Shown one piece after another: positions 11,487 through 37,302 of a stretch of 42,576 bases of DNA. Numbering within the stretch: the first letter of the stretch is position 1; every line of letters begins with the position of its first letter. The position numbers were made by a program, and so were the translations under genes. The notes under the pieces were generated by a model that saw only the letters and a list, made by a program, of their open reading frames with translations, made no database searches and had not been told where the DNA came from. The DNA comes from a virus: IMG/VR virus record IMGVR_UViG_3300030329_003371, positions 1-42,576 of that record; one strand, given 5' to 3'.

Positions 11487-11972
11487 TTATTTAGCTGAAA
11501 CTTTCTGGGCCCCTTCTTGAAGCAAGGTCTTTTTAGAAGACCCTAAAACTACTTTTCTTGGTTTTAACTGTTCCGGAATAAGCCGGACGAAATCAATAAC
11601 CAAGACTCCATCGACTAAGTCGGCTCCTTCGACTTCGACAAACTCTGCAACTGAGAATGCCTTTTGAAACCTACGAGTCCCGATGCCCTTGTGGACATAG
11701 TCCCGAGCCTCTTCTTCGGTAGGATTCTTCTCACCAGTAATGGTGACTTTGTTTTCTTTGACTTCAACATCTAACTCCTCTTTGCTGAAACCCGCTACTG
11801 CTAACTCAATTGAGAAGCGGTCGTCATCATGCTTAATGATGTTATAAGGTGGATACCCTTGTTGGCTAGTGTTATGGCCAACGGATGCTAGAGTTTCAAA
11901 CATACTATCAAAACCGATAGCAGTGGAACGAAAGGGATCAAAAATGTTATGAAGATTGCTATGTGTAACCAT
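11487..11972 (-). CDS. hsp20: Small heat-shock protein Hsp20 (IbpA-like)
   Basis: A 161-residue alpha-crystallin-family chaperone. The N-terminus (HNIFDPFRSTAIGFD) resembles IbpA, and the alpha-crystallin domain spans about residues 40-130 with PPYNIIKHDDDRFSIELAVAG split across strands. The VAGFSKEELDVEV and conserved RRFQKAFSV region are present. These proteins bind unfolding proteins without ATP. Hsp20 genes are a near-constant feature of marine T4-like phages. A sigma70-like promoter (12059-12031) and a GGAGG ribosome site lie directly upstream, so it can be expressed early and strongly. Confidence 0.93.
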   Translation of the reverse strand: MVTHSNLHNIFDPFRSTAIGFDSMFETLASVGHNTSQQGYPPYNIIKHDDDRFSIELAVAGFSKEELDVEVKENKVTITGEKNPTEEEARDYVHKGIGTRRFQKAFSVAEFVEVEGADLVDGVLVIDFVRLIPEQLKPRKVVLGSSKKTLLQEGAQKVSAK

Positions 11973-20897: not shown

Positions 20898-21491
20898 TTA
20901 TTCATCCTCCGTAAAATGAGCTAGAAGAACAATATAATGAACAGCCTTTAACAGATCCTTTCTGTTATATCCATCCTTCTTACCATAACGCATTAGATAC
21001 TTAATTGCTGTATCTCTTGTTGTTGTAGCAGCACTACCAAGAGTGTGCCAAACATCAGTCGTCTGGATCTCTTCTTTACCAACATAATGACCAGCATATG
21101 TCGTCCCAATATATTGAAGACATTCCTTCAACATCTTATCTTCACCATAACGAAACTTAGATACGATCTCATCATGCACATCAAAGTCTGTTGGTGGGAC
21201 ACTCATATCAATCTCCTTTTCGACTTTGTCTTGTATAGGCTTGCCCCACAAGTCAGCAGGAACATCCTCCCGGACAGGATACACTTCCGGACCTTTATCC
21301 TTGCTCAACTCCAATCGTACAGGATATGCTTCCGGCTGTATCGGCTTGCCCCACAAGTCAGCAGGAACATCCTCACGAATAGGATAGACTGGGATTTCAG
21401 CTAATACACTAGCAGCATCAGCAACTGAGGTCAAATCATCATTATCAGAAGTCAACCCTTCCATCAAAGCATCTGGCTTAGGTCTAATCAT
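20898..21491 (-). CDS. DUF3310-like protein with an internal repeat, 197 aa
   Basis: The C-terminal 90 residues follow the DUF3310 pattern, ending AIKYLMRYGKKDG then KDLLKAVHYIVLL, a small helical domain found in many phages near nucleotide genes. The N-terminal 100 residues contain two copies of a peptide, YP(I/V)REDVPADLWGKPIQ, 35 residues apart. I prefer ATG 21491 because it overlaps the dpdA-like stop as TAATG. Two codons upstream there is an in-frame GTG. The function of DUF3310 proteins is not settled. Confidence 0.75.
   Translation of the reverse strand: MIRPKPDALMEGLTSDNDDLTSVADAASVLAEIPVYPIREDVPADLWGKPIQPEAYPVRLELSKDKGPEVYPVREDVPADLWGKPIQDKVEKEIDMSVPPTDFDVHDEIVSKFRYGEDKMLKECLQYIGTTYAGHYVGKEEIQTTDVWHTLGSAATTTRDTAIKYLMRYGKKDGYNRKDLLKAVHYIVLLAHFTEDE
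21232..21389. repeat. Two direct repeats of 53 bp, offset 105 bp
   Basis: Copies at 21232-21284 and 21337-21389 differ at only a few positions and are in frame (35-codon offset), so the protein repeat comes from a recent DNA duplication. Both contain ttgccccacaagtcagcagg. Confidence 0.85.
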
Positions 21492-22345
21492 TACCACGTT
21501 CTACCTCCACATAAGTTATCGATATACTCCATGTTATATCGAGCATCGTCTATTAGATCATTCTCTTCTGTTAGGAAGTCAAAGTCAACCTCTTTGTCAA
21601 ACTTTCCATGGTTTAAGCCAGTAGGACTACTATCAAATCTTATACCATTCAATCCAGCCCACACAGCAGCCGAACTATCCCACGTATCAATTAGCTCAAC
21701 AAATTGTTGCACTAAACAGATCTCATTGGGACCTTCGGTCATTCCTAAGAAATGAAACTTCTTACCTTTCTGCTTGATACTCTTGAGATCAAACCTCTTA
21801 TTGATCTCACGCATGAACTTCCACCTTGATAAAAACTTCTGCATTCTATAGCTATCGACAGTCCCCACCTGATGCATCTCACAACCATATGCTATAGGGA
21901 TGTTAAGAATACTAAACGCTACGTAATCAATACCAGGATGATGGAATGCCCAACCATAGGATGCAATCAGTCCTTCAAGGTCTCCAGCCTCAGCTTGAGG
22001 ACAGAAGAATGTACCTATACCAACATCACGACATTGTGGTATCATTTCAAGAGCAGCATCCATTGTCCTCTTTGCTGGTTCTTTAGGATAGTCAGATAAT
22101 ACAAGATAATCAGCACCAACTTTCAAAGCCATATCAATTAGCTTTTCAGTTGGATACATTGGCTGACAGCGTTTGTACATTTCAAATGCACTATTATCTA
22201 AAATGACTTCCCCATTACAATTACGATAGAAATCAGCATACCCTTCATCTTCCTCAACTAAATGAGCAAGCGCTAGGTGTACCGGACGACTATGAACTAG
22301 GGGTAAATGTGGGGTAGGTACGATATGACAAAAATCAATGGACAT
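21491..22345 (-). CDS. dpdA: DpdA-like DNA guanine transglycosylase, 284 aa
   Basis: The layout resembles a tRNA-guanine transglycosylase-type TIM barrel reduced to phage size. VILDNSAFE and YLVLSDYPKE are acidic strand ends that could provide the general acid/base aspartates. FLGMTEGPNE and GIRFDSSPTGLNHGK near the C-terminus could hold the nucleophile Asp. It lacks the classic zinc Cys cluster of bacterial TGT, as phage DpdA variants can. DpdA enzymes swap guanine in DNA for a 7-deazaguanine. The main support is context: queE, queD, folE and a QueD-like gene are all within 4.4 kb upstream. It could instead act on tRNA. The DpdA subfamily is not assigned. Confidence 0.65.
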   Translation of the reverse strand: MSIDFCHIVPTPHLPLVHSRPVHLALAHLVEEDEGYADFYRNCNGEVILDNSAFEMYKRCQPMYPTEKLIDMALKVGADYLVLSDYPKEPAKRTMDAALEMIPQCRDVGIGTFFCPQAEAGDLEGLIASYGWAFHHPGIDYVAFSILNIPIAYGCEMHQVGTVDSYRMQKFLSRWKFMREINKRFDLKSIKQKGKKFHFLGMTEGPNEICLVQQFVELIDTWDSSAAVWAGLNGIRFDSSPTGLNHGKFDKEVDFDFLTEENDLIDDARYNMEYIDNLCGGRTW

Positions 22346-22700
22346 CAGGATTCCTCAATAATATAGCTCCATTCTCACCATCTTCACTGACCTCGATCTT
22401 TATCTTACGGCCAGGATAATGTTGTTCTATATATTTAGCTAAGTCTTCAGCAAGCATCTCACAACTTTTGTGATCTATTTCCATCGTACCATTACCATAT
22501 AACTTTTCAAGTTCACGCTTAAACAGAATGAACTCAATCTCTCTATCATCATGAAATACTTGCACTTGTACATTGAAGTGAAACATATGACGATGGGGAT
22601 AAGCTAGAAACTCAATTCCCGGCATCTTATCGGCATCGGGCCACCGATGTATTCCTTCCTTCTGGAAGGTTACAAAAATCCACGTGCTATTCATAGCCAT
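22335..22700 (-). CDS. Short QueD-like (T-fold) protein, 121 aa
   Basis: Three clustered histidines (His36, His38, His41 in PHRHMFHF) resemble the QueD/PTPS zinc site. IDHKSCEMLAEDLAKYI holds an Asp-His pair and a helix like QueD's PTSENLA region, and IEVSEDGENGA takes the place of the catalytic V-x-E-T strand. Compared with true QueD the catalytic Cys before the zinc histidines is missing, although Cys80 exists. Similar short proteins are conserved in marine T4-like phages. It overlaps dpdA by 11 bases. It could be a partner or a tailoring enzyme acting on 7-carboxy-7-deazaguanine, which is an inference. Confidence 0.65.
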   Translation of the reverse strand: MAMNSTWIFVTFQKEGIHRWPDADKMPGIEFLAYPHRHMFHFNVQVQVFHDDREIEFILFKRELEKLYGNGTMEIDHKSCEMLAEDLAKYIEQHYPGRKIKIEVSEDGENGAILLRNPDVH

Positions 22701-22715
22701 AACAAATTCTCCATG

Positions 22716-23162
22716 TTAAAAGTTCATCTCAGCACTCACCGTGCCATGATAAGACTTTAGTTTCTTATTCAATTGCCACACATTATCATTAGCCCGATTA
22801 AAGATTTCTATCAATCGGTCTTCGGTGAGGTAATCCGGAAGGAGGAAGAACTCAGTTATCCCTCCCATACCATCTAGTGTACCAGACGGTAAATCAAAAT
22901 GCTCCTCTAGCTGAAAGTCTTTTGGACATAGTGCTTTAAATGCATGCTCCATACCAAAAGCTGCCGCTCGAGCAAGACTGTAAGACTCACTACTGCAGTA
23001 AACAGAAGCAAGTTCCTCAATCTTAAATAAATCGTAGCCTGGGTGATGAAATTTTGAACTCTTCCCAAAACGGTCCTCCAATAACCTACTATGTGACTTG
23101 GATATACCAGTCTTGTAAGCCTGCTTGTCATTACAACTCCACTTGAGCAAATAATTATTCAT
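22716..23162 (-). CDS. GIY-YIG / T5orf172-like protein candidate, 148 aa
   Basis: The N-terminus (LLKWSCNDKQAYKTGISKS then EDRFG) has the look of the degenerate GIY-YIG group with Y-K-x-G-I and a later Arg. GMEHAFKAL supplies the Glu expected in the middle helix, and GGITEFFLL resembles the family end. This would make it a small nuclease-like protein, but the match is to motifs only. It sits between folE and the short QueD-like gene, inside the deazaguanine cluster. An alternative is an unknown phage family. Confidence 0.4.
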   Translation of the reverse strand: MNNYLLKWSCNDKQAYKTGISKSHSRLLEDRFGKSSKFHHPGYDLFKIEELASVYCSSESYSLARAAAFGMEHAFKALCPKDFQLEEHFDLPSGTLDGMGGITEFFLLPDYLTEDRLIEIFNRANDNVWQLNKKLKSYHGTVSAEMNF

Positions 23163-23172
23163 TGGTCAACTC

Positions 23173-23874
23173 TCAGTTTAAGATAGACAGTCCTCTTGCA
23201 ATGTTGAGGAACTCACGACGCATCTCAGATGACTGCTCAGCAAACACACCCTCGACAGCTAGTGTACAAGTGCTTGATCCAGTATCTTGAATCCCTCTAC
23301 TCTTTACACAATAGTGCACCGCTTCAAGATATACAGCAACATCAGGTGTACCAGTAACAAACGAGATCGTTGCAGCAATCTGCTCAGTCAGTCTCTCTTG
23401 GACTTGAGGGCGCTTTGCAAAGAACTCTACGATACGATTCAACTTAGACAATCCAAGAACCTTAGCCTTAGGAATGTATGCAACACAGGCCTTACCATCA
23501 ATCACAACAAGATGGTGTTCACAGTTAGATTGGACATTGACATTACGTTCAACCACAAATGAGCCAGGTGAGTTCTTACCCATCTTATTCTCAATCGTAG
23601 TACACTTAGGAAACTGGCTGTAATCCAATCCCCAAAAGATTTCTTTGACCCACATCTTAGCAACACGATTAGGTGTATCCATCAGTGAGTCGTCAGTAAG
23701 ATCAAGACCGAGCGCCTTTAGTGCCTCAGTCATCTGACCTTTGATGAGCTCAATCTTTTGCTCAGCAGGCATATTTACCTTATCGGTCATTGGTGTTTCA
23801 AGACCAATGCTTTCCAGATGGTCTTTTACTTTCTGACCCAATACAGGATCAGACTTATAATCGGGGTGGCTCAT
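23173..23874 (-). CDS. folE: GTP cyclohydrolase I (FolE)
   Basis: I chose ATG 23874 because it overlaps the upstream stop as ATGA and has GGAGAAGGAG just before it. This gives 233 residues, normal for FolE. Signature parts are present: SNCEHHLVVIDG (zinc Cys and His), IPKAKVLGLSKLNRIVEFF, RPQVQERLT and HYCVKSRGI (third zinc ligand). It converts GTP to dihydroneopterin triphosphate, the first step to folate and to 7-deazaguanines. With queD and queE close by, the second use is more likely here. Confidence 0.95.
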   Translation of the reverse strand: MSHPDYKSDPVLGQKVKDHLESIGLETPMTDKVNMPAEQKIELIKGQMTEALKALGLDLTDDSLMDTPNRVAKMWVKEIFWGLDYSQFPKCTTIENKMGKNSPGSFVVERNVNVQSNCEHHLVVIDGKACVAYIPKAKVLGLSKLNRIVEFFAKRPQVQERLTEQIAATISFVTGTPDVAVYLEAVHYCVKSRGIQDTGSSTCTLAVEGVFAEQSSEMRREFLNIARGLSILN

Positions 23875-24356
23875 CTTTTCTCCTTCTCCGGTGGCAGTTC
23901 CCACGGGAATATAATCCAGTCTTTAGTATCTATTGATTTAGCTTTGAAGTCAACATTAAATATACTGGACGTCCTTTCCCACAATGCTGCGGTTTTTATA
24001 TTTTGTTTGACACGGCGTGGACCTAGAACATTGGCATCTGCAATATCTTCGAGTATTTGTGAGAATGTTTCACCAGAGTCGTTGATATCGTCCACTAGCA
24101 GAACCTGTTGATCACGAGACAAATAAAGACTTTCTTTGATTGCTCCGTCCCTCAATTGCCAAGTAATACTCTTCATAGGTCTACTAAGCAAATGTGACAG
24201 GTAAACGGAGGGCACGAGCCCACCTCTTGCTATTCCTACAATGAGGCTAGGGCTCCACTTCATATGCTCTGAAGATACTTCATCTTCATAGATTTGTATC
24301 CTCATAGCTATATCCTTGATATCCTTGTAATAGGTATCAATATTATACGGGATCAC
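23871..24356 (-). CDS. Gpt-like purine phosphoribosyltransferase, 161 aa
   Basis: The PRPP-binding motif VLLVDDINDSGETF is typical of type I phosphoribosyltransferases. LIVGIARGGLVPSVYLSHLL matches the N-terminal pyrophosphate loop region. The C-terminal DTKDWIIFPWEL resembles the substrate-binding end of xanthine-guanine phosphoribosyltransferase (DTWIEQPW in E. coli Gpt). It would make GMP or XMP from the free base and PRPP. It lies upstream of folE with a four-base overlap, consistent with feeding guanine back into GTP for FolE. Base specificity is not certain. Confidence 0.75.
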   Translation of the reverse strand: MIPYNIDTYYKDIKDIAMRIQIYEDEVSSEHMKWSPSLIVGIARGGLVPSVYLSHLLSRPMKSITWQLRDGAIKESLYLSRDQQVLLVDDINDSGETFSQILEDIADANVLGPRRVKQNIKTAALWERTSSIFNVDFKAKSIDTKDWIIFPWELPPEKEKR

Positions 24357-24565
24357 GCAAAGTGTTCCTTTAACGTCTCTAGCTTGTCTTGAGCTTCAGC
24401 CATTCTAGCTACCTGAGTATCTACAGCAGCAACTACGTCCGGATGTTCTCCTATACCTGCTGGGTTTTGTAAGTAAACAGTAATGTTGGCAGCTGCTTCA
24501 GCCATCTCAGCCTCATACTTTTTTTCAAGAGCCTCGATCATATCCGACTTGATCATATCCATCAT
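24353..24565 (-). CDS. Hypothetical helical protein, 70 aa
   Basis: Highly helical with a heptad-like pattern, no Cys and few aromatic residues. It overlaps both neighbours by four bases (ATGA style) and so is translated with the deazaguanine genes. The function is unknown. A structural or scaffold role is all that the composition suggests. Confidence 0.65.
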   Translation of the reverse strand: MMDMIKSDMIEALEKKYEAEMAEAAANITVYLQNPAGIGEHPDVVAAVDTQVARMAEAQDKLETLKEHFA

Positions 24566-24738
24566 TGTACTTGCTCCCTTAGTTCTTGGACTCTGTTCTC
24601 TAAGACATTAACAGCAGTCCTTAGGTGGCCAGTATCATGATCTGTGAACCTGCTTTTCAAAAGAGCAACTTCTTCAACCAGAACAACAATCCTGTCCACA
24701 ATGGCTCCATTGTTAGAAGCCTTTGCTTTAGTCGTCAT
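24562..24738 (-). CDS. Hypothetical coiled-coil protein, 58 aa
   Basis: A short helix with hydrophobic heptads (VDRIVVLVEEVALLKSRF, then VLENRVQELREQV), predicted to self-associate. I prefer ATG 24738 because GGAG stands six bases before it. An in-frame ATG at 24750 has a poorer site. The start lies inside the queD end. The function is unknown. Confidence 0.6.
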   Translation of the reverse strand: MTTKAKASNNGAIVDRIVVLVEEVALLKSRFTDHDTGHLRTAVNVLENRVQELREQVQ

Positions 24739-25198
24739 CAAATTCTCCATCTTCTCTGTGGCCTGTCTTCATGGCCATGTTGCTGTCCGTTTCACGGACT
24801 TCCACTTTGCAGCACCATATACGATCCTGCTCTCCATAATCTTTTAAGAAAATAGTATTTACATATTCATATAAGAATGTAGCTAAACCTTCACAACCAG
24901 TCTTTTCTACTTGAGTAATCTTAGCAAGACCAAGATCACCTAGCTTCAATAGATGATCACGATCTGGATCATCATCAGCTACTAACAATGTATGATCAAA
25001 CCAATCTTCAAGCAGATCTTTTAGAGGTCTAAGACCTCCAAAGTCCATTACCCAATTTCGAGTATCGAGCGTTTCGGACTCAAACTCAAAATGAAACGAA
25101 AGTGCATAACCATGAATTAGGTTACAATGACTATCAGCCCTCCATTGCCTATAGGCAACAGGACCAAGATGTTTGTAAGTTTTAGTAGAAATATACAT
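24728..25198 (-). CDS. queD: 6-carboxytetrahydropterin synthase QueD (variant)
   Basis: 156 residues in the T-fold family. The catalytic Cys25 and zinc His29 lie in SHCNLIHGY. The Asp68-His69 pair lies in WFDHTLLV, and Glu136 in EVRETDSNM completes the QueD site. MDFGGLRPLKDLLEDW matches the family core. The second histidine of the usual HGH is Tyr31 here, and the first zinc His is not at the usual spacing, so zinc may use His24 or His36. QueD turns dihydroneopterin triphosphate into 6-carboxytetrahydropterin. It follows the oxygenase gene directly. Confidence 0.85.
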   Translation of the reverse strand: MYISTKTYKHLGPVAYRQWRADSHCNLIHGYALSFHFEFESETLDTRNWVMDFGGLRPLKDLLEDWFDHTLLVADDDPDRDHLLKLGDLGLAKITQVEKTGCEGLATFLYEYVNTIFLKDYGEQDRIWCCKVEVRETDSNMAMKTGHREDGEFDDD

Positions 25199-25798
25199 CT
25201 ACTTGCCTCCATAGAATGAGTGAATGCCCGACGTCCGGTCTCGAGCTACGTGAGGATAATCCTCATTCTTTATCTTCATATTCCCACTGATTGATACACG
25301 AAGGCCACCGGTCTCGTTCCTTGTTGTATAGTGGGGCAACCAAGATGGAAAGACAATCAACAATCCCTCTTGAGGGGTCACAGAATGATTTCGGGTTTGG
25401 TTGTGTTGTTGCATCTGAAAGATTATATTACCACCTTTCATCTTATTAGGCAACCTTGGATAGTATACCCATGAAAGATTTAAGTTCTCATAGTCTTTCG
25501 GATTTCTATGACTATGTATCATAGTCGTAGCATTATCTTCTAAGATATGTGCCCATATCTCAGATAAGAAATATCTATCATCAATCGTTGAGTGAAACAC
25601 TTGCGTCACTTTATTCTTCAACATATCAACTACACGATGGTCAGGTATTCTTGAGTCTTCATTACCCGTTGCGTTTGGATCATCACTGATCTTCTTGTCT
25701 CTCCATTTCAAACACAAGTCTGTTAGAGTTTCATTTTCCATACCCTTGATGTGGGCCATCCCAACACCAACATAACTAACAGGGGTAATACTGACCAT
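25199..25798 (-). CDS. 2-oxoglutarate/Fe(II) oxygenase-like protein, 199 aa
   Basis: The start at 25798 follows GGAG by six bases. The candidate iron ligands are His95/His97 in MIHSHRNPKD and His156 in LIVFPSWLPHYT, with Arg167 in GLRVSISGNM for 2-oxoglutarate. This is the pattern of the conserved phage oxygenase group (TIGR02466-like). The usual Asp after the first His is not evident (HSH), a possible variation of the facial triad. It sits between queE and queD in the same transcript, so a role in a modified deazaguanine is conceivable but unproven. Confidence 0.65.
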   Translation of the reverse strand: MVSITPVSYVGVGMAHIKGMENETLTDLCLKWRDKKISDDPNATGNEDSRIPDHRVVDMLKNKVTQVFHSTIDDRYFLSEIWAHILEDNATTMIHSHRNPKDYENLNLSWVYYPRLPNKMKGGNIIFQMQQHNQTRNHSVTPQEGLLIVFPSWLPHYTTRNETGGLRVSISGNMKIKNEDYPHVARDRTSGIHSFYGGK

Positions 25799-25799
25799 T

Positions 25800-26705
25800 T
25801 TATACTCCTATGGCATTGCCCCAGAGATAAGCATGAACCCTAGCAGACACGTTGAAACCACGATCTAAAGCCATATTAGCCACCTCTCCAGCATCTTTAT
25901 ATTGATCTTCTACAGTTGCACCAACTGGCATGATCCATACAGGATAATCAATACCAGCATTTCTGAACAATGGAAGAACCTCATCTAACTCATCCCAACA
26001 TTCTTTTCGTCCATTCATTACAAACTTCAGCTGACCGTGTTTGCTTAACATCCTATATGTCTTCAAGTTATCTGGCTTAATGGCTTTACCTCTAGGTTCA
26101 CCAGAAACAGACCATAGCTTAGGACTCAATGACCAAAATATTTCACCATTGTAACAACCTTTGTTATTGAAGAAGGTAATGAACTCTTCAGTAATAGGTT
26201 GTGTACCATTCGTCTCGAATGTAATATTATTAGGACCTCTGTTCCCATTTCTTAATTCACTTACAATGCCTATAATAGCTTGCTGTGATCTTTTCAATAG
26301 TGGCTCACCACCTGTAACGCATAGATGTATATCTTGCCGACCAATATTTCCATAAGGCTGTACAAACTGATCAAAGGGAATTATATCAAGTAGTCTATCT
26401 GCTATTTCTTTAGCCGTCCCAGTTCTTTGCAATGCTCTGAATTTCTTATGCCACGAATAAGAACTGTCACAGCCTTTTTCAAATACTGGTAGTTCTTCTA
26501 GCGCGTTATACTCATCAGGATTGACTTTAAGGTACGGCAACTCATACGACGTTGGATCAGTTGGATCATCCTGTCCAAAACCATTACACTGCAGGTTGCA
26601 GGTAAAGAACCTCAACCACGCAGTAGGTACCCCAGTGTACTTTCCCTCACCCTGTGCAGAGTAAAAGATTTCACTATAATGGTAAACTGAGTCCTGTTTT
26701 ACCAT
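25800..26705 (-). CDS. queE: 7-carboxy-7-deazaguanine synthase QueE with split cluster motif
   Basis: 301 residues, longer than bacterial QueE (about 210-220). The N-terminus YSEIFYSAQGEGKYTGVP and CVTGGEPLL are diagnostic. The radical-SAM motif is odd: Cys36 and Cys40 are in place (TCNLQCNGFGQ), but the third position is Phe43. The next Cys is Cys79 in GCDSSYSW, which resembles the CDTxYxW that normally follows the third Cys. About 38 residues seem to be inserted between the second and third ligands. The enzyme would ring-contract carboxytetrahydropterin to 7-carboxy-7-deazaguanine. Confidence 0.85.
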   Translation of the reverse strand: MVKQDSVYHYSEIFYSAQGEGKYTGVPTAWLRFFTCNLQCNGFGQDDPTDPTSYELPYLKVNPDEYNALEELPVFEKGCDSSYSWHKKFRALQRTGTAKEIADRLLDIIPFDQFVQPYGNIGRQDIHLCVTGGEPLLKRSQQAIIGIVSELRNGNRGPNNITFETNGTQPITEEFITFFNNKGCYNGEIFWSLSPKLWSVSGEPRGKAIKPDNLKTYRMLSKHGQLKFVMNGRKECWDELDEVLPLFRNAGIDYPVWIMPVGATVEDQYKDAGEVANMALDRGFNVSARVHAYLWGNAIGV

Positions 26706-27312
26706 ACTTCTTTCTCCATTTCTTGAATGCCATGTCTCTTTTCAGTTTACTTACTTTCATGGTATAGTCAACGCCCATCAGATGATCATACTCATGCTGA
26801 AATACTCGTGACGTAATATCTTGAAATCTACGTGTGACTACATCCCCATAGGGATCCTGAAATCGTGCACGCACATATCGTGGTCTGTTGATTCTTAAAC
26901 TGAGACCTGGATATGACAGACATCCTTCCTCCAGAAGAATTTTATCATCTTCACTTAAATAGGTTATCTTTGGATTGAATACAGCATATGCTGGCTCACC
27001 CTCCATTACAAAAACACTTAAAGGTATACCAACTTGATTAGCGGCCAACCCGTACCCCATCTTTGATCTCATAAACTTGACTAGGGATGCTGATAGGTCT
27101 GCTGCATTCATTTGTGGATTCTTAAAATCAAACGGTTCGGTTTCTTTGTGAAGGTAGGTATTGTCAAAATCTAGTTCAAGCGTTCCATCTTTGTCATAGA
27201 TAAAAGCCTCATGCTTGTACCAGAAGGGGACAGCACCTTCCTGCGTTGTGTCAATCTCAAGTTGTTTGGGAAGCTCTTTGTCTTCCAGTCCTTCAATCTT
27301 TAGTGTTGCCAT
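26674..27312 (-). CDS. def: Peptide deformylase
   Basis: All three PDF motifs are present: GYGLAANQ (residues 86-93), EEGCLSYPG (Cys131 metal ligand) and FQHEYDHLMG (His173, His177 and Glu174). The 212 residues include an N-terminal extension of about 45 compared with typical phage forms. It removes the formyl group from nascent proteins. Marine phages often carry it, probably to keep up processing of phage or short-lived host proteins. It overlaps the carbamoyltransferase gene by 20 bases and QueE by 32. Confidence 0.95.
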   Translation of the reverse strand: MATLKIEGLEDKELPKQLEIDTTQEGAVPFWYKHEAFIYDKDGTLELDFDNTYLHKETEPFDFKNPQMNAADLSASLVKFMRSKMGYGLAANQVGIPLSVFVMEGEPAYAVFNPKITYLSEDDKILLEEGCLSYPGLSLRINRPRYVRARFQDPYGDVVTRRFQDITSRVFQHEYDHLMGVDYTMKVSKLKRDMAFKKWRKKYGKTGLSLPL

Positions 27313-28735
27313 TATACACCTTTACATTATATTTCTCTTCAAACATTTTACTGTCTTCGAGATCGTTCACCATTGGTTGGCCCTTTATGTTTAGACTTGT
27401 ATTTAGTAATATAGGACAGCTAGTTCGATGATAAAACTCTTCCAAAATATCTCTTAATGGTGAGTGCTTAGCTGATTGTTTACTAACAGTATGCACACGT
27501 GATGTTCCATCTACATGAACAACGGAAGGAATATCTTGCTTCCTTATACATGGAATAGCATATTGCATAAAGTCATAATTCTCTAATGTAGATACAGCAA
27601 AATAATCACTAGCATGCTCAGACAAAACTGATGGTGCAAAGGGTCTAAACTTCTGTCTCTTCTTTATTTCATTGACCTTGTCTTTGATATTGGGATCTCT
27701 TGGATCAGCTAGTAAGCTACGATTCCCAAGAGCCCTAGGACCAAACTCAGCACGGCCGGCGCTAACACCAACGATGCCATGATTAATAATGTGGTCAACG
27801 ACCGACGAGATATCATTCAGGTCTCCAGCATCTTTACCTGTAAAACAATGTTCGAAGTTTATTTTCTTTTTCTTCACCAACGCAGCTGCTCCTAATGACG
27901 ATCCTGCATCACCTGGATTAGGAAATATAAAGTGCCGCTTATTATTGAATATCTTTCTATTGGCTACAACATTATGAGCAACACCACCACCATAGACGAT
28001 AGGTCCATCAATCTTGTTTATCATACCCTTTAATAATCGTTCGGTCAACAGCTGAGCATTAAATGCCAGGTCTTCATCAGATGCATGTGGTGCAAAGTCT
28101 TTACAGCCTCTATCAAGGTTATGCTTCTTCATTAACCTTTTCATTGCCTCATATAAGGCTATGTTGTCTTTACCATAAGCAGCCATTCCCATCAGAATAT
28201 ACTCATCTTCCATTGGTTTTAATCCAACACGGTCAGTAATGGCTGAGTAGAATAAACCAATAGACAACGGAAACCTTATAGATGAGACCTTTTTATATCT
28301 TGCTACTTGTTTACCCAAGTAACTTTTTTCATACCAACAATTCCATTGACTAATGGTATCGAACTCACCTATAGCATCAACAACAAGTGCAGTAGCTTTT
28401 TCAAATGGTGAGCATTGGAATGCTGCAGCTGCATGAGATAAGTGATGACTAAAGCATTGGCTATACTTATAGCCTAGCTTTCTTGGCTTAAAAGCATAAG
28501 ACCATCTACGTTGATATAAATGTCTCAATGCCTTTATGTGAGGCCTTTCATAAAATGCAGCATGTTCCCATGTATATTTGTTATTAACATACTCCATGAA
28601 TTCAGGGCTTAGGTACTTGTTATTTTTAGTCTTTGAGAATCTTTCATCATGAGCCGCAAAGACAATTTCGTGACCATCAAGTATGGTCACGGCTGCATCA
28701 TGATAGCCCTCACTAAATCCAAGTACATTACTCAT
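27293..28735 (-). CDS. NodU/CmcH-family carbamoyltransferase, 480 aa
   Basis: The Kae1-like N-terminal domain shows GYHDAAVTILDG and DERFSKTKNN at residues 7-40, HHLSHAAAAF near 90-100, and GGGVAHNV. The C-terminal domain shows GRAEFGPRALGNRSLLADPRD in parts and KKRQKFRPFAPSVL. This is the O-carbamoyltransferase family (NodU, CmcH, TobZ), which moves a carbamoyl group from carbamoyl phosphate through an adenylate onto a hydroxyl. It is shorter than most members (about 550-600). The acceptor is unknown. Related genes occur in cyanophages. Confidence 0.9.
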   Translation of the reverse strand: MSNVLGFSEGYHDAAVTILDGHEIVFAAHDERFSKTKNNKYLSPEFMEYVNNKYTWEHAAFYERPHIKALRHLYQRRWSYAFKPRKLGYKYSQCFSHHLSHAAAAFQCSPFEKATALVVDAIGEFDTISQWNCWYEKSYLGKQVARYKKVSSIRFPLSIGLFYSAITDRVGLKPMEDEYILMGMAAYGKDNIALYEAMKRLMKKHNLDRGCKDFAPHASDEDLAFNAQLLTERLLKGMINKIDGPIVYGGGVAHNVVANRKIFNNKRHFIFPNPGDAGSSLGAAALVKKKKINFEHCFTGKDAGDLNDISSVVDHIINHGIVGVSAGRAEFGPRALGNRSLLADPRDPNIKDKVNEIKKRQKFRPFAPSVLSEHASDYFAVSTLENYDFMQYAIPCIRKQDIPSVVHVDGTSRVHTVSKQSAKHSPLRDILEEFYHRTSCPILLNTSLNIKGQPMVNDLEDSKMFEEKYNVKVYNGNTKD

Positions 28736-32192: not shown

Positions 32193-32741
32193 TCATTTGT
32201 AGAAGACCTCGACACCACGTGGTGGTTTGGGCTTAGGTTTCTTCTTCTTAAATTCTTTTTCCTCAAAGCTGGTAACGAAGTCTTTCATGTAATCACTGCT
32301 TGTATTTGCATACGAAACATACCCACCATTACCGGTACTGTCAACAACTAACGTATCGTTTAATACTGCATTCTCCAAAGACTTGTGTTTGATATACAGC
32401 TGCTTCTTTTCTTTCTGTATACGTCTAAGAAATGCATAATAGATAATCTGTGTGAAATAGGCAAACGGATTTTTTGACTTTTCAGGGTCAAAGTTATCAA
32501 TATAGTTCACACAGTTTTCAATCCCATCACAAACCATTTCATCCTTAAATGTATAGTTTGCAAAATTGGGCTTTGTGGCTAAACGGTTTGCTATTTGTAG
32601 TAGACATTCTCCAATATAGTCTGGTATACGAGGCTTATTATCTCCTGATTGTTCAGCTTCGTCAACAGATTTTTTATAGTCTACCATTACGAGATACAAT
32701 TGCTTGTTATCTACGTAGTGCCTGCCCCCCTTTCTAGGCAT
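32193..32741 (-). CDS. 55: Late-transcription sigma factor gp55
   Basis: 182 residues (T4: 185). NYTFKDEMVCDGIENCV and FDPEKSKNPFAYFTQI followed by FLRRIQKEKKQ, the sigma region-2 core of gp55, match T4 closely. gp55 replaces the host sigma and directs RNA polymerase to TATAAATA boxes. Such boxes are seen at both ends of this window. The start overlaps the end of the Sm-like gene by one base. Its C-terminal tail is basic (EFKKKKPKPKPP), unlike T4, where the end contacts the clamp. Confidence 0.92.
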   Translation of the reverse strand: MPRKGGRHYVDNKQLYLVMVDYKKSVDEAEQSGDNKPRIPDYIGECLLQIANRLATKPNFANYTFKDEMVCDGIENCVNYIDNFDPEKSKNPFAYFTQIIYYAFLRRIQKEKKQLYIKHKSLENAVLNDTLVVDSTGNGGYVSYANTSSDYMKDFVTSFEEKEFKKKKPKPKPPRGVEVFYK

Positions 32742-33121: not shown

Positions 33122-34555
33122 CTACTCCTTTAGGTTATAACTGTGAATACTATACTCAAATTGTTCTTCATTATACAGCTTTACTCGTTCACCATAATGT
33201 CGAAGTGTATAGTTAATCCACTTTCCATTTTGTAGATCATCAACAATATCATACAATTTACTCTTGTCTTTACTCTCGTGCGTTCTTAATGATCTACCAA
33301 TAGATTGTAGAACGCGTATCTTAGATTTGGAAGGAGCACCAAAAATTATGTTATGCAAGTTCTTAATATTAATGCCTGTACTAAATGTTCCATATGAGGC
33401 AACAATTAATGCATTTGTATCATTCTCAACAATTTCTCTTATTTCATTTCGTTCTTCACCTTTTACACCACCGTAAACAAAGTGGCTGTTCTTTTCTAGT
33501 GACTGGGCCATATCAAACAATTCCTGGCCATGTCGAACAAAATTAAATAATAGTAACGAATTTCCTTCCAAAACCTTGCATAACTTAATTATAAACTCAT
33601 TTCTAGCACCACTATCTACGAGATAGTTTATCTCGTCTCTGTACTTAGCTCTTGCTTGCCTCTTTCTATTTTGTTCATGATGCTTTAGTACACATATATT
33701 TATCTTCAAATCTGCTAAATTCTTCTTTTCTATTAGTTCTGCAGTGGAAGTTACTTTTTCAACGGGGCCAAACAGTCCTTCAAGAACTAATCTATGCGTC
33801 TGAGATCCATCGAGTGTACCAGTAAACCCAAATCTGTATGGTGTGTTATCAAGTTTTGACATAATATTGGTGAGTGATTTTGCCTTGAAAAGGTGGGCCT
33901 CATCTCCAATAACCACGTTAAATTGCTTGAACCACTTCTTTGGCAGCTTGTAAATACTTTGCCAAGTAGTGACAGTAATCTCATGCACAATCTCCTTATC
34001 TGCTCCAGCTGTTATTTTCTGTACTTCTTTGTCGTATCCATACTCTTGAAAGTCACTTGCCATTTGATGAACAAGTGCAGTTGTTGGAACAACTATTAGC
34101 TTTTTCATTGTAGCATAGTGGCGGCAAAGCATATAGATGATCAGGGACTTACCAGAAGCTGTAGGAGACAGAAGAAGACACCTGCGGTTACGTACTGCAT
34201 GTGCTATGGCACTCTTCTGGTAGTCCCTTGGCTCGAGTGTTAATTGCACACTCTTTGCCAGATCATCTACTTCACTATCTTCAAAGATAGCTTTGGTCGT
34301 TAGTTTTTTATCGACTTCTATCGGAATGTCTCTAACTCGACAAAAGTCACAAATATAGTCTGTTAAACCAACATAAATGCTCCTCGTCACTTGGTTAAAC
34401 AGACGAATCTTTCCATCCCAATGTCTGTTTCTGACTGCCGGCATAAACTTAGCACCTGGTACATCAAACGTAAAATAATCTGACAGCTCTTGAGCTTCAG
34501 ATGGTTCACACTCAACCTTTAAATGTAAATCGTTTGCATACTTCAGACTGATCAT
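33122..34555 (-). CDS. uvsW: DNA helicase UvsW
   Basis: 477 residues (T4: 503). Superfamily 2 motifs are in order: LLLSPTASGKSLII (Walker A), VVPTTALVHQM (Ia), IGDEAHLFKAKS (II), FGFTGTLDGS (III) and QSIGRSLRTHESKDK (VI). UvsW unwinds R-loops and branched DNA, moving T4 replication from origin to recombination mode. It overlaps UvsY by four bases. All motifs look intact. Confidence 0.95.
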   Translation of the reverse strand: MISLKYANDLHLKVECEPSEAQELSDYFTFDVPGAKFMPAVRNRHWDGKIRLFNQVTRSIYVGLTDYICDFCRVRDIPIEVDKKLTTKAIFEDSEVDDLAKSVQLTLEPRDYQKSAIAHAVRNRRCLLLSPTASGKSLIIYMLCRHYATMKKLIVVPTTALVHQMASDFQEYGYDKEVQKITAGADKEIVHEITVTTWQSIYKLPKKWFKQFNVVIGDEAHLFKAKSLTNIMSKLDNTPYRFGFTGTLDGSQTHRLVLEGLFGPVEKVTSTAELIEKKNLADLKINICVLKHHEQNRKRQARAKYRDEINYLVDSGARNEFIIKLCKVLEGNSLLLFNFVRHGQELFDMAQSLEKNSHFVYGGVKGEERNEIREIVENDTNALIVASYGTFSTGINIKNLHNIIFGAPSKSKIRVLQSIGRSLRTHESKDKSKLYDIVDDLQNGKWINYTLRHYGERVKLYNEEQFEYSIHSYNLKE

Positions 34556-34989
34556 ATACCGACCTTAAACTTTTCCCAGGTAATAGCATTATTGATTTGA
34601 TAACTTCGTATACTTAATGTCTTGATTACACTTTCAAGAAACTCAACCTTCTCCTTTAGATACTCTACTTTAAGATCCATTGCAGCTACATCTTTATCTG
34701 CTTCTACATGCATTGGTACATCTTGCTTGAGTATCTTTAATGGATTCTGATCCCATCCAAGACTATCAAGATCCTCTTCAGACATAATACCCATATACCA
34801 AATAGCTTTATTCTTTTTTAGCAACTGAAGGTCCTTCTTTGCTTTTGTATATGATAGCCTCTCGTGACTGAAAAACTTATAGTACTTGTGGTGTAGCTGA
34901 GGGATTTTGATAGACTCTTCACCTAGCTCGGTCCTATCGATCTTGCTGTCGGCATCCCATTCATCCCAATAAAAGTCAAGTTTAGCCAT
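34552..34989 (-). CDS. uvsY: Recombination mediator UvsY
   Basis: 145 residues, of the marine-phage UvsY type: KIDRTELGEESIKIPQLHHK, KYYKFFSHERL, LKILKQDV and KVEFLESVIKTL with NNAITWEKFKVGI at the end. UvsY loads UvsX on gp32-covered DNA. The gene has its own sigma70 promoter just upstream (35042-35014). A GGAG box precedes the start. Confidence 0.9.
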   Translation of the reverse strand: MAKLDFYWDEWDADSKIDRTELGEESIKIPQLHHKYYKFFSHERLSYTKAKKDLQLLKKNKAIWYMGIMSEEDLDSLGWDQNPLKILKQDVPMHVEADKDVAAMDLKVEYLKEKVEFLESVIKTLSIRSYQINNAITWEKFKVGI

Positions 34990-35046: not shown

Positions 35047-35649
35047 TTATTTGGTGATGAATGCTGATGTAGATACTTCGTCCCGTCCACCGGAGCCGAG
35101 ATCAAATATTTTGAATTGTCTATATCGGAACGAAACCTGACACTCAATGTAGTTGACACTCGTTTCTTGTGTAGTGAATGTAATGTCAGAAAGGCTTACT
35201 GGATAAGCGTCTTCATAAAGGATTGACATATTAGGTTGCATTGCAGAGTTGGTAATCGTTAATGTAGCATCACTGAATGCTGCATTTTGATCGAGGGATA
35301 GTTTGGCATCCTCAGCTTTGTATATTTCTTTGGATTGTTGAAACGACTCTGGAAAACCTAACTGGATCATCCAATTGTATAACTCAAGGTAGTTCTTCAT
35401 ATCTTCATCAACCTTGAATGTGATAAACAGATCTCCATATCTTAGATGATCACCAATCTGTGGTATCGATACAAATGGAGATGGTGTTTCCAAATCACCT
35501 AATTGAACTGAGGGTATGTTAGCAGACTGCAAGAAGTAGTTTGCATGTGGTATTTTTTGAATTGAGAAGTTGAAACCAAGCGGTGAAAGATAATTTGTAT
35601 TATCTGGTTGGTTTGCTAATGCTCCTACATTTTCTGAAGAGACTGCCAT
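35047..35649 (-). CDS. Tail-tube-like virion protein candidate, 200 aa
   Basis: A beta-rich protein with conserved-looking blocks LSPLGFNFSIQKIP, FLQSANIPSVQLGD, and YNWMIQLGFPESF. The general pattern resembles gp19/tail-tube-fold proteins of marine T4-like phages, including strands followed by a VEW-type ending, here VSFRYRQFKIFD. It is distinct from the gp19 at 41902-42453. It could be a second tube or baseplate-tube junction protein. It is the last late gene before the early promoter for uvsY and overlaps the Usg-like gene by 25 bases. Confidence 0.65.
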   Translation of the reverse strand: MAVSSENVGALANQPDNTNYLSPLGFNFSIQKIPHANYFLQSANIPSVQLGDLETPSPFVSIPQIGDHLRYGDLFITFKVDEDMKNYLELYNWMIQLGFPESFQQSKEIYKAEDAKLSLDQNAAFSDATLTITNSAMQPNMSILYEDAYPVSLSDITFTTQETSVNYIECQVSFRYRQFKIFDLGSGGRDEVSTSAFITK

Positions 35650-35864
35650 ATATCTACTGTCCTATAATCTGACTTCTTTGCAAAAGAGACTTGCACTTCA
35701 TTTATTACTGCATCAATTTCCTCATGCCAAAAATTAAGGAACTTATGTACCCGAGGTATCTCAGGAACAATGTCCTTTGTTTGCCAGATGAATTGATTAA
35801 GCACGTTATTGTAATCTGGCATCCAATAATAAACATGCACTGTTACCAATTCTTTTACTATCAT
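35625..35864 (-). CDS. Usg-family protein, 79 aa
   Basis: VHVYYWMPDYNNVLNQFIWQ and IPRVHKFLNFWHEEIDAVINE follow the pattern of the bacterial Usg family (YRMPDHPxLLQxxVWQ ... FPxLxxFLDFW), a small protein of unknown function known from alphaproteobacteria. I took ATG 35864 because the longer frame runs through the terminator into gp23. This start coincides with the predicted late start site, so the mRNA would be leaderless. Alternatives are GTG at 35840 or ATG at 35822. It overlaps the next gene by 25 bases. Confidence 0.7.
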   Translation of the reverse strand: MIVKELVTVHVYYWMPDYNNVLNQFIWQTKDIVPEIPRVHKFLNFWHEEIDAVINEVQVSFAKKSDYRTVDIWQSLQKM

Positions 35865-35869
35865 ATAGG

Positions 35870-35877
35870 TATTTATA
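35870..35877 (-). promoter_or_regulatory. T4-type late promoter
   Basis: Exact TATAAATA on the minus strand directly behind the gp23 terminator. It restarts late transcription for the Usg-like and tail-tube-like genes. Confidence 0.75.
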
Positions 35878-35879
35878 CA

Positions 35880-35909
35880 AAAAGAAAGGGGTGGTCCGAA
35901 GACCACCCC
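35880..35909 (-). terminator. Intrinsic terminator after gp23
   Basis: On the minus strand GGGGTGGTC (35909-35901), a TTCG tetraloop, GACCACCCC (35896-35888), then TTTCTTTTT. The nine-base-pair GC-rich stem with a UUCG loop is very stable. It lies 32 bases below the gp23 stop. Confidence 0.93.
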
Positions 35910-35940
35910 CAAGTAGATTACCGCTACTTTCTTCTTCTTA

Positions 35941-37302
35941 TTACATGATGTTATCGACGACGATCTTACGATAGTACTCGTTAGAATCAGCACCAAGCGC
36001 GCCAGTAGCTGCAAGAGCAGTTGTACCTCTGGCAAATGGATTCTCGATGACTCCATAACGAGTCTTGAATCCAATTTTTGGCTGGAAGGTGTCTTCACCA
36101 ACCGCACGGACCATCTGTAGTGGTACGTATGGGCAGTAGAACAGACCAGCATCAAAAGCGCTGGAGCCCTTATAACCGACGGTCATGTAGTTACCTGTCG
36201 TATAAGGATCAATGTAAACTCTAATTCTGCCGTTGAGAACACCAGCAAATGTGTTGCCTGTGTCATCTACGCTCAGGTTGTTAGAGTTAAGTGCTGGAGC
36301 GTAATCAAGAACACCCGCCATCTGAAGTGCCGAAGCAACATCCGAAGAGCAGATGATCATGTTACCTTTGCCCCGACGAGTGCCTTTGGCAATACTGTTT
36401 GCCTCACGCTCGATCTGGAACATAAGCCCCTTGAATTTTTCAACCATCCAACGACCGTTTGAGTCGGTGTCAAGGTCGAACTTACCGGCTGTGGTCGTGT
36501 CATCTTGGGCACCGACCTTAGCTACTACGTTAACTGTCCGGACAATCTCACGGTTGATCTCAGCAAGGATCTCTGTGGAGAGAATGTTGGCCAGCTCGGA
36601 CTCAGCGTCAAGACCGTGAATGGCTTTCAGGTCCTGTGCCAATTCCATTGTGTACTCAGCTTTGAGCGCTCTTGACTTTGCAGTCACAGCAATCTTCTCA
36701 ATGCTGAATGCCATTTCTGGGAACGCATTACCGGAACCGTCACCAAGACGTTCAGCCTGAGCTGTCGTCATGCCAGCGGCAAAGTTGTACAGTTCGACGT
36801 TAGAAGCCGAGCTGTTCAAGTAACCGTTACCAACGAACGTACCAAGGTTCTGAGTAGCAGCGCCAACTGTTGCGTTGGTCGAGCTATCTTTGTCCAAGGA
36901 ATGACCGGTATTAACTTCGTTATAGAATGTCTCTGTTCCAGACTGAGACGTAACCCTAGATCTCATGGCAAAGATAAGTCCGGTAGGACCAGTCATTGGC
37001 TGGACACCGCAAATATCATAAGCAACGAGGTTAGGCATTGCACGACGAACCAGGCTGATAAGCACTGGGTCGTAAATGTCAACAGCACCGTCACCAGCTG
37101 TGGATGACGAAGCACCCATGGCGTTGGTTGGCGCCGCTTCGAGCAATGACTGAGGATTAAAGCCCGCGGACTCTCTCAGAGCATTCTCTGTGTTTTCCAA
37201 AACAACAGCCGTTACATTGCGTTTGTGAACATCCTTAATTTCTTCGAGATCAGGATGCTCAAGGATAGGCTGCCACTTTGCTTTTAGTTCTTCTGTAAGC
37301 AT
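35941..37302 (-). CDS. 23: Major capsid protein gp23
   Basis: 453 residues of the T4 gp23 type. The N-terminal 60 residues form the pro-region cut by gp21. The capsid body shows LVRRAMPNLVAYDICGVQPM, TGLIFAMRS, ELANILSTEILAEINRE and a late RVYIDPY, all conserved marine gp23 blocks. It forms the hexamers of the head. Codon choice is more G+C-rich than in neighbouring genes, as expected for the most abundant phage protein. The start follows AAGGAG. No TATAAATA box stands directly before it. Confidence 0.97.
   Translation of the reverse strand: MLTEELKAKWQPILEHPDLEEIKDVHKRNVTAVVLENTENALRESAGFNPQSLLEAAPTNAMGASSSTAGDGAVDIYDPVLISLVRRAMPNLVAYDICGVQPMTGPTGLIFAMRSRVTSQSGTETFYNEVNTGHSLDKDSSTNATVGAATQNLGTFVGNGYLNSSASNVELYNFAAGMTTAQAERLGDGSGNAFPEMAFSIEKIAVTAKSRALKAEYTMELAQDLKAIHGLDAESELANILSTEILAEINREIVRTVNVVAKVGAQDDTTTAGKFDLDTDSNGRWMVEKFKGLMFQIEREANSIAKGTRRGKGNMIICSSDVASALQMAGVLDYAPALNSNNLSVDDTGNTFAGVLNGRIRVYIDPYTTGNYMTVGYKGSSAFDAGLFYCPYVPLQMVRAVGEDTFQPKIGFKTRYGVIENPFARGTTALAATGALGADSNEYYRKIVVDNIM

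Follow-up and report, generated by a model that had tools for sequence, protein, structure and literature searches.

The window, by which is meant the whole 42,576-nucleotide stretch of viral DNA analysed here (IMG/VR record IMGVR_UViG_3300030329_003371), carries a T4-like late region. A gp19-like tube gene and the genes for portal gp20, protease gp21, scaffold gp22 and capsid protein gp23 lie upstream of a small gene, usg. A phrog_45 protein (gp3), UvsY and UvsW are encoded downstream. The features of interest are as follows.

32193..32741, minus strand: gp55, late sigma factor (phrog_234, 218 bits)
34552..34989, minus strand: UvsY, the next gene downstream of gp3 (PF11056, 96 bits)
35047..35649, minus strand: gp3, tail-tube terminator (phrog_45, 122 bits; PDB 9mkb, E 7.9e-5)
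35625..35864, minus strand: usg, a 79-aa PF06233 (Usg) protein (Pfam 71.5 bits, cut-off 27)
35870..35877, minus strand: T4-type late promoter octamer TATAAATA (-13 to -6 rule, conserved spacing in relatives)
35887..35910, minus strand: terminator-like hairpin after gp23 (10 pairs, T-rich tail; -20.5 kcal/mol, z -2.99)
35941..37302, minus strand: gp23, major capsid protein (PF07068, 494 bits; phrog_138)

The gene order 5' to 3' is gp23, hairpin, TATAAATA, five bases and the usg ATG, and the first 25 nt of gp3 lie within the 3' end of usg. The span 35625-35877 given for usg in the preliminary description comprises the open reading frame (ORF), the five bases (CCTAT) and the octamer (35877-35870). 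That description placed usg between capsid and tail-tube-like genes. The capsid side of this statement stands, gp23 being matched by Pfam, but the other neighbour is better named gp3, the tail-tube terminator. Although its PHROG label is 'tail tube', its sole PDB match is 'gp3, tube terminator protein', and its cyanophage homologues are annotated as tail completion or head-proximal tip proteins. Assignment of usg to a late virion unit holds up, and comparison with relatives strengthens it. The window also encodes gp55, which is expected to read the late promoter.

Elsewhere in the window, positions 11487-11972 encode a phage Hsp20 small heat-shock protein (PF00011, 62.7 bits); Hsp20 often neighbours cellular usg too. 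Host-like genes at 21491-28735 encode a carbamoyltransferase, a peptide deformylase, a PTPS/QueD-like protein and GTP cyclohydrolase I (FolE), and this region also has a weak radical-SAM match, below its cut-off. Together they may produce a pterin or 7-deazaguanine precursor.

Family membership and structure of the window protein

The Usg identity proposed from the letters alone is confirmed by the PF06233 profile, which matches at E 6.3e-20 with residues 5-62 aligned to profile positions 6-63 of 80. The gene was also recovered by a six-frame profile search of the whole record. A 176-aa frame with a TTG start that passes through usg is a continuation out of gp23 and was rejected as a gene. Among viral relatives, 47 of 47 from the first scan, with the window protein as query, pass the PF06233 cut-off. 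Nine columns are invariant over 26 proteins, 15 from phages and 11 cellular: P16, D17, W27, D31, P34, P37, F42, L43 and W46. These are held in common with the cellular Usg of Alphaproteobacteria, to which the window protein is 27-35% identical. Phage Usg differs from cellular Usg in starting later and in lacking a conserved C-terminal stretch, LIxPxEW...G. The Pfam match ends at position 63 of the profile because this stretch is missing; Pfam does not require it for family membership. Judged by sequence, the window protein belongs to a viral lineage of Usg, carried by marine T4-like phages, that differs C-terminally from the cellular one.

Searches of PHROGs and NCBIfam with the window Usg gave no match. 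A BFVD entry, A0A6J5KMR6, 'Usg-like [uncultured Caudovirales phage]', which is known here from its BFVD row alone, is 42% identical to it over 77 columns and has the same predicted fold. Phage Usg as such is therefore not new. A non-exhaustive literature search found no paper on phage Usg and none that gives Usg a function. One paper (PMC8092295) assigns PF06233 to TrpB; as PF06233 is Usg here, the accession in that paper is apparently wrong.

The AlphaFold model of the window Usg is a small b-b-a-b fold (pLDDT 87.1). A fold search of the PDB with this model returned nothing at E<=0.001 and no informative structural neighbour. The best VIA-align rows, phage p56 uracil-DNA-glycosylase inhibitors (Z 5.9, 52 aligned, 2.0 A) and ribosomal eL20, have middling scores and were set aside. 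A sequence search of the PDB gave a single match at chance level (E 0.33), which was likewise rejected.

Two virion slots for usg

A scan with the window protein yielded 47 viral loci, and an alignment-based scan yielded 324 stretches encoding a relative, of which the best 80 were used. Two arrangements recur. Slot A is gp23-usg-gp3-uvsY, as in the window. Slot B is gp5, then PAAR or another ORF, usg, gp25 and gp6. Among the best 80 of 324 viral loci, 28 fall in slot A, 51 in slot B and one (L043) is unplaced; the slot-A count is made up of 27 classed by script and L049, which lies on the same contig as L002 and had been lost to an overlapping ORF. No second usg copy was found in 65 distinct records, of which only two contigs cover both slots. 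In G059, usg occupies slot B and gp3 directly follows gp23; in G060, usg occupies slot A and is absent before gp25. Slot-B copies have the same MIIKK N-terminus without the slot-A promoter, which supports the chosen usg ATG.

Purifying selection acts on usg: of 14 chosen pairs, 13 give pN/pS values of 0.05-0.35, and only L040/L042, with very few changes, is higher (0.80). A tree was built from 56 proteins and 88 columns, few for so many rows, after exclusion of one cellular row (L148) with a broken frame. The phage proteins form one side of a 100/100 branch that separates them from 19 cellular proteins, a sample drawn from plasmid records only and without SAR11 and most marine groups. The proteins of the two slots fall apart in the tree, with a single change from one slot to the other, and the unplaced L043 groups with slot A. 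As far as this limited tree goes, phage Usg would be of one origin; the pattern fits a single capture of usg followed by one move between slots.

Four related isolates with complete genomes, Pelagibacter phage Mosig EXVC030M, DLP_6, phiM12 and P-TIM68 (4 of 4), have no Usg at E<=1. No match was found by tblastn in 50,697 phage records with Usg of the window, of L046 and L087 and of the cellular locus L129 as queries. The sole locus from the genome collection, L118 (QCKS01000048.1), is filed under an Acidimicrobiales single cell and carries usg-gp25-gp6. It was taken as phage DNA because phage baseplate genes are present and because Usg occurs in only 1 of 59 Acidimicrobiales genomes, that one being its source; it resembles DNA of a T4-like phage recovered with a sorted actinobacterial cell. 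In L006, gp3 and uvsY are separated by an ORF at 1503-2534, one part of which is endonuclease V-like and the other of unknown function.

The two slots bear on what Usg might be. One reading makes it, in place of a helper, a minor structural subunit of the virion, lying in the neck or baseplate beside gp3 or gp25/gp6. Nearly every classified locus does have usg next to tail-terminator or baseplate-wedge genes, and usg stands under a late promoter. The four related complete isolates, however, have the same tail genes without usg, so that Usg is dispensable for that tail plan, and the cellular relatives of Usg have no virion. We regard a structural role as rather unlikely. Similarly improbable is an auxiliary role in host support, with Usg boosting or replacing the Usg of the host and late clusters serving as permissive insertion sites. 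Usg is indeed a cellular family, the window has other host-like genes (Hsp20, FolE and peptide deformylase), and the gp23-gp3 gap takes other inserts elsewhere, an exonuclease in DLP_6 and two ORFs in P-TIM68. Random cargo would nevertheless be expected at other places too, whereas 79 of the 80 best loci have usg among virion genes, at two independent-looking sites.

Late promoter and the spacing of start codons

T4 late promoters carry TATAAATA at -13 to -6 (PMC1524935). In the window the octamer is placed relative to the usg ATG, and the T4 position applies to the predicted start. By this rule and the 5-nt spacing, +1 is predicted to fall at 35864 on the A of the ATG of usg, in agreement with its placement in the preliminary description. 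The octamer alone is weak evidence, because the window has seven copies of TATAAATA against 2.8 expected; at least seven occurred in 2 of 100 shuffles. It is the conserved position of the octamer in relatives that provides strong evidence for the putative promoter. SD-like purine runs precede the gp19-like gene, gp20, gp22, gp23 and uvsY in the window; there is none before usg, which starts with an ATG lacking an SD.

In 23 of 30 slot-A contigs the distance from the end of the octamer to the usg ATG is 4-7 nt; many of the contigs are close relatives and hence do not represent 30 independent events. Fourteen have 5 nt, a count that includes the four contigs L108-L111 with a corrected usg start; the distance is 4 nt in two, 6 nt in one and 7 nt in six. 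Leaderless spacing is lacking in the other seven. Octamer and usg start are 29 nt apart in L040, L042 and L048, usg stands behind a short ORF in L072, L074 and L085 (weakly holin-like in L085), and L213 has a leadered usg with an SD. In L040, L042 and L048 the codon 5 nt after the octamer is ATA, not ATG, which makes them a natural leadered variant.

The same geometry is found at gp3. In relatives without usg, gp3 stands directly behind the terminator and promoter. With the usg-less gp3 of G059 as query, the best 80 of 155 gp3 loci were fetched, and usg is present in two of these. In 64 of 96 viral loci gp3 starts exactly 5 nt from the motif. No SD word precedes any of these 64 starts or any of 21 usg starts at 3-7 nt. 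The picture at gp23 is the opposite: none of 76 gp23 starts lies at 3-7 nt from the motif, 51 lie at 20-60 nt, 25 have no motif, and an SD is present in 75 of the 76 loci.

The pattern is not uniform across isolates. In Mosig EXVC030M, 5 of 30 such starts lie at 5 nt, gp3 included, and this phage may have a small set of late messages without a leader. Pieces of the Mosig genome (L230-L236) contain four further ORFs exactly 5 nt after an octamer, near 60989+, 94128+, 60329- and 106671-. Cyanophage P-TIM68 has no 5-nt peak of ORF starts, S-CREM1 has a leadered gp3, and in Melnitz-1 the annotated gp3 start, preceded by an SD-like run, is in a different frame from the ATG at 5 nt.

A usg message with a leader would arise from another start or by read-through from gp23, the 5-nt spacing being a by-product of compaction. 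Such leaders do occur in some slot-A relatives (L040, L042, L048 and L213), but a hairpin terminator stands between gp23 and usg, and gp3 and usg repeatedly show a spacing of exactly 5 nt with no SD, which gp23 never does. The distribution of spacings is also sharp. When ORFs distinct in their first 15 residues were pooled, 42 of 139 starts lay exactly 5 nt after [TGA]ATAAATA, against one at 4 nt and one at 6 nt, and five permuted motifs gave 0-2 starts at 5 nt; among the 42, three starts lie inside uvsW. A leadered message in the window is considered very unlikely.

The preferred reading remains a leaderless start. Since gp3 has the same geometry without usg, such a start would be a property of the gp23/gp3 junction and not of usg. 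It appears to be a trait of this junction in many marine T4-like phages, which usg would have inherited by insertion. Usg itself needs no leaderless message, as the slot-B copies show. The possibility of a leaderless usg mRNA, raised in the preliminary description, therefore survives as a predicted geometry kept in most slot-A contigs, but it is not special to usg. The conserved 5-nt spacing of promoter and ATG at gp3 and usg suggests that marine T4-like phages make a late message without a leader at this junction.

Cellular usg and the proposed role of phage Usg

Searches by tblastn place Usg in 138-139 plasmid records, and the genera listed are all alphaproteobacterial. In 16 of 20 fetched alphaproteobacterial plasmid loci groEL lies within about 1.2 kb of usg. 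It is transcribed away from usg in 15 of the 16, and Hsp20 is often found on the other side of usg. The four loci without nearby groEL are L132 (searched with 2-kb flanks), L141, L142 and L143, with L141 and L143 on replicons >3 Mb; chromosomal-type cellular usg (L141-L143) is thus not beside groEL. In Mesorhizobium loti the Usg family gene msl2390 is reported to be strongly induced by heat shock, with an M-value of 5.54 against 5.79 for the groEL gene mlr2394; mll2386 and mll2387 are the two most heat-induced small heat-shock genes (PMC3989490). Their locus tags suggest that msl2390 lies near mlr2394, mll2386 and mll2387. Folding of T4 gp23 requires GroEL and the phage co-chaperonin gp31 (PMC3012670).

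Usg is not a GroES. A Pfam scan of the window protein finds Usg only, with no Cpn10 match, and it is gene neighbourhood that links Usg to GroEL. Cpn10 (PF00166) was found in 0 of 20 records of usg phages, all of them fragments, and in one of the four isolates (DLP_6).

The following course of events is proposed. (i) Insertion would have placed usg behind the late promoter of the gp23-gp3 junction and ahead of gp3, where it took over the +1 of the promoter. (ii) The usg message most likely begins directly with the AUG and lacks both a leader and an SD. (iii) gp3 would then be read from the start that overlaps the end of usg. (iv) Usg is envisaged as an accessory, made late, that aids folding or assembly of a head, neck or baseplate protein, possibly via the GroEL pathway. 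A folding or assembly helper is preferred because cellular usg lies near groEL, the M. loti gene is induced by heat and T4 gp23 needs GroEL. A role in folding gp23 specifically fits poorly, because slot B adjoins baseplate genes and not gp23. Slot B suggests instead a helper of several virion proteins or another role. The assembly role hinted at in the preliminary description draws support from position, in the form of the two virion slots, and indirectly from the groESL neighbourhood of cellular usg. The interpretation as a whole was supported in part.

Confidence differs among the parts of this proposal. The family, position, selection and spacing of usg were computed here, and the anatomy of the locus is held with high confidence. 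The transcript start, late timing and function we infer. That usg was inserted at a leaderless late promoter and that its product is a late accessory of virion morphogenesis seems, taken together, an evenly balanced proposition. The chaperonin link, considered alone, is the weakest step and is put forward tentatively; the passage from 'beside groESL' to 'works with GroEL' is one that we infer. A joint reading goes further, with Usg as a chaperonin-linked folding or assembly factor, in bacteria a heat-shock gene next to groESL, that marine T4-like phages recruited for assembling the virion, and gp3/usg as a conserved leaderless late message whose mode is inherited by whichever gene lies at +1; it is possible, though doubtful. 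The tie to groESL in bacteria and to two virion clusters in phages nonetheless provides a first testable functional hypothesis for Usg.

Cellular Usg is encoded beside groESL, whereas phage Usg is encoded inside virion gene clusters. T4-type late promoters with leadered messages share with the usg promoter the octamer TATAAATA at the T4 position, and gp55 is present in the window phage. In the same phages gp23 is leadered and preceded by an SD, whereas the start codons of usg and gp3 coincide with the predicted +1 and lack an SD. A further parallel is the gp23-gp3 junction of Mosig EXVC030M, which likewise has a terminator followed by GATAAATA, 5 nt and an ATG. In Mosig, with no usg, this ATG is the start of gp3; in the window it is the start of usg.
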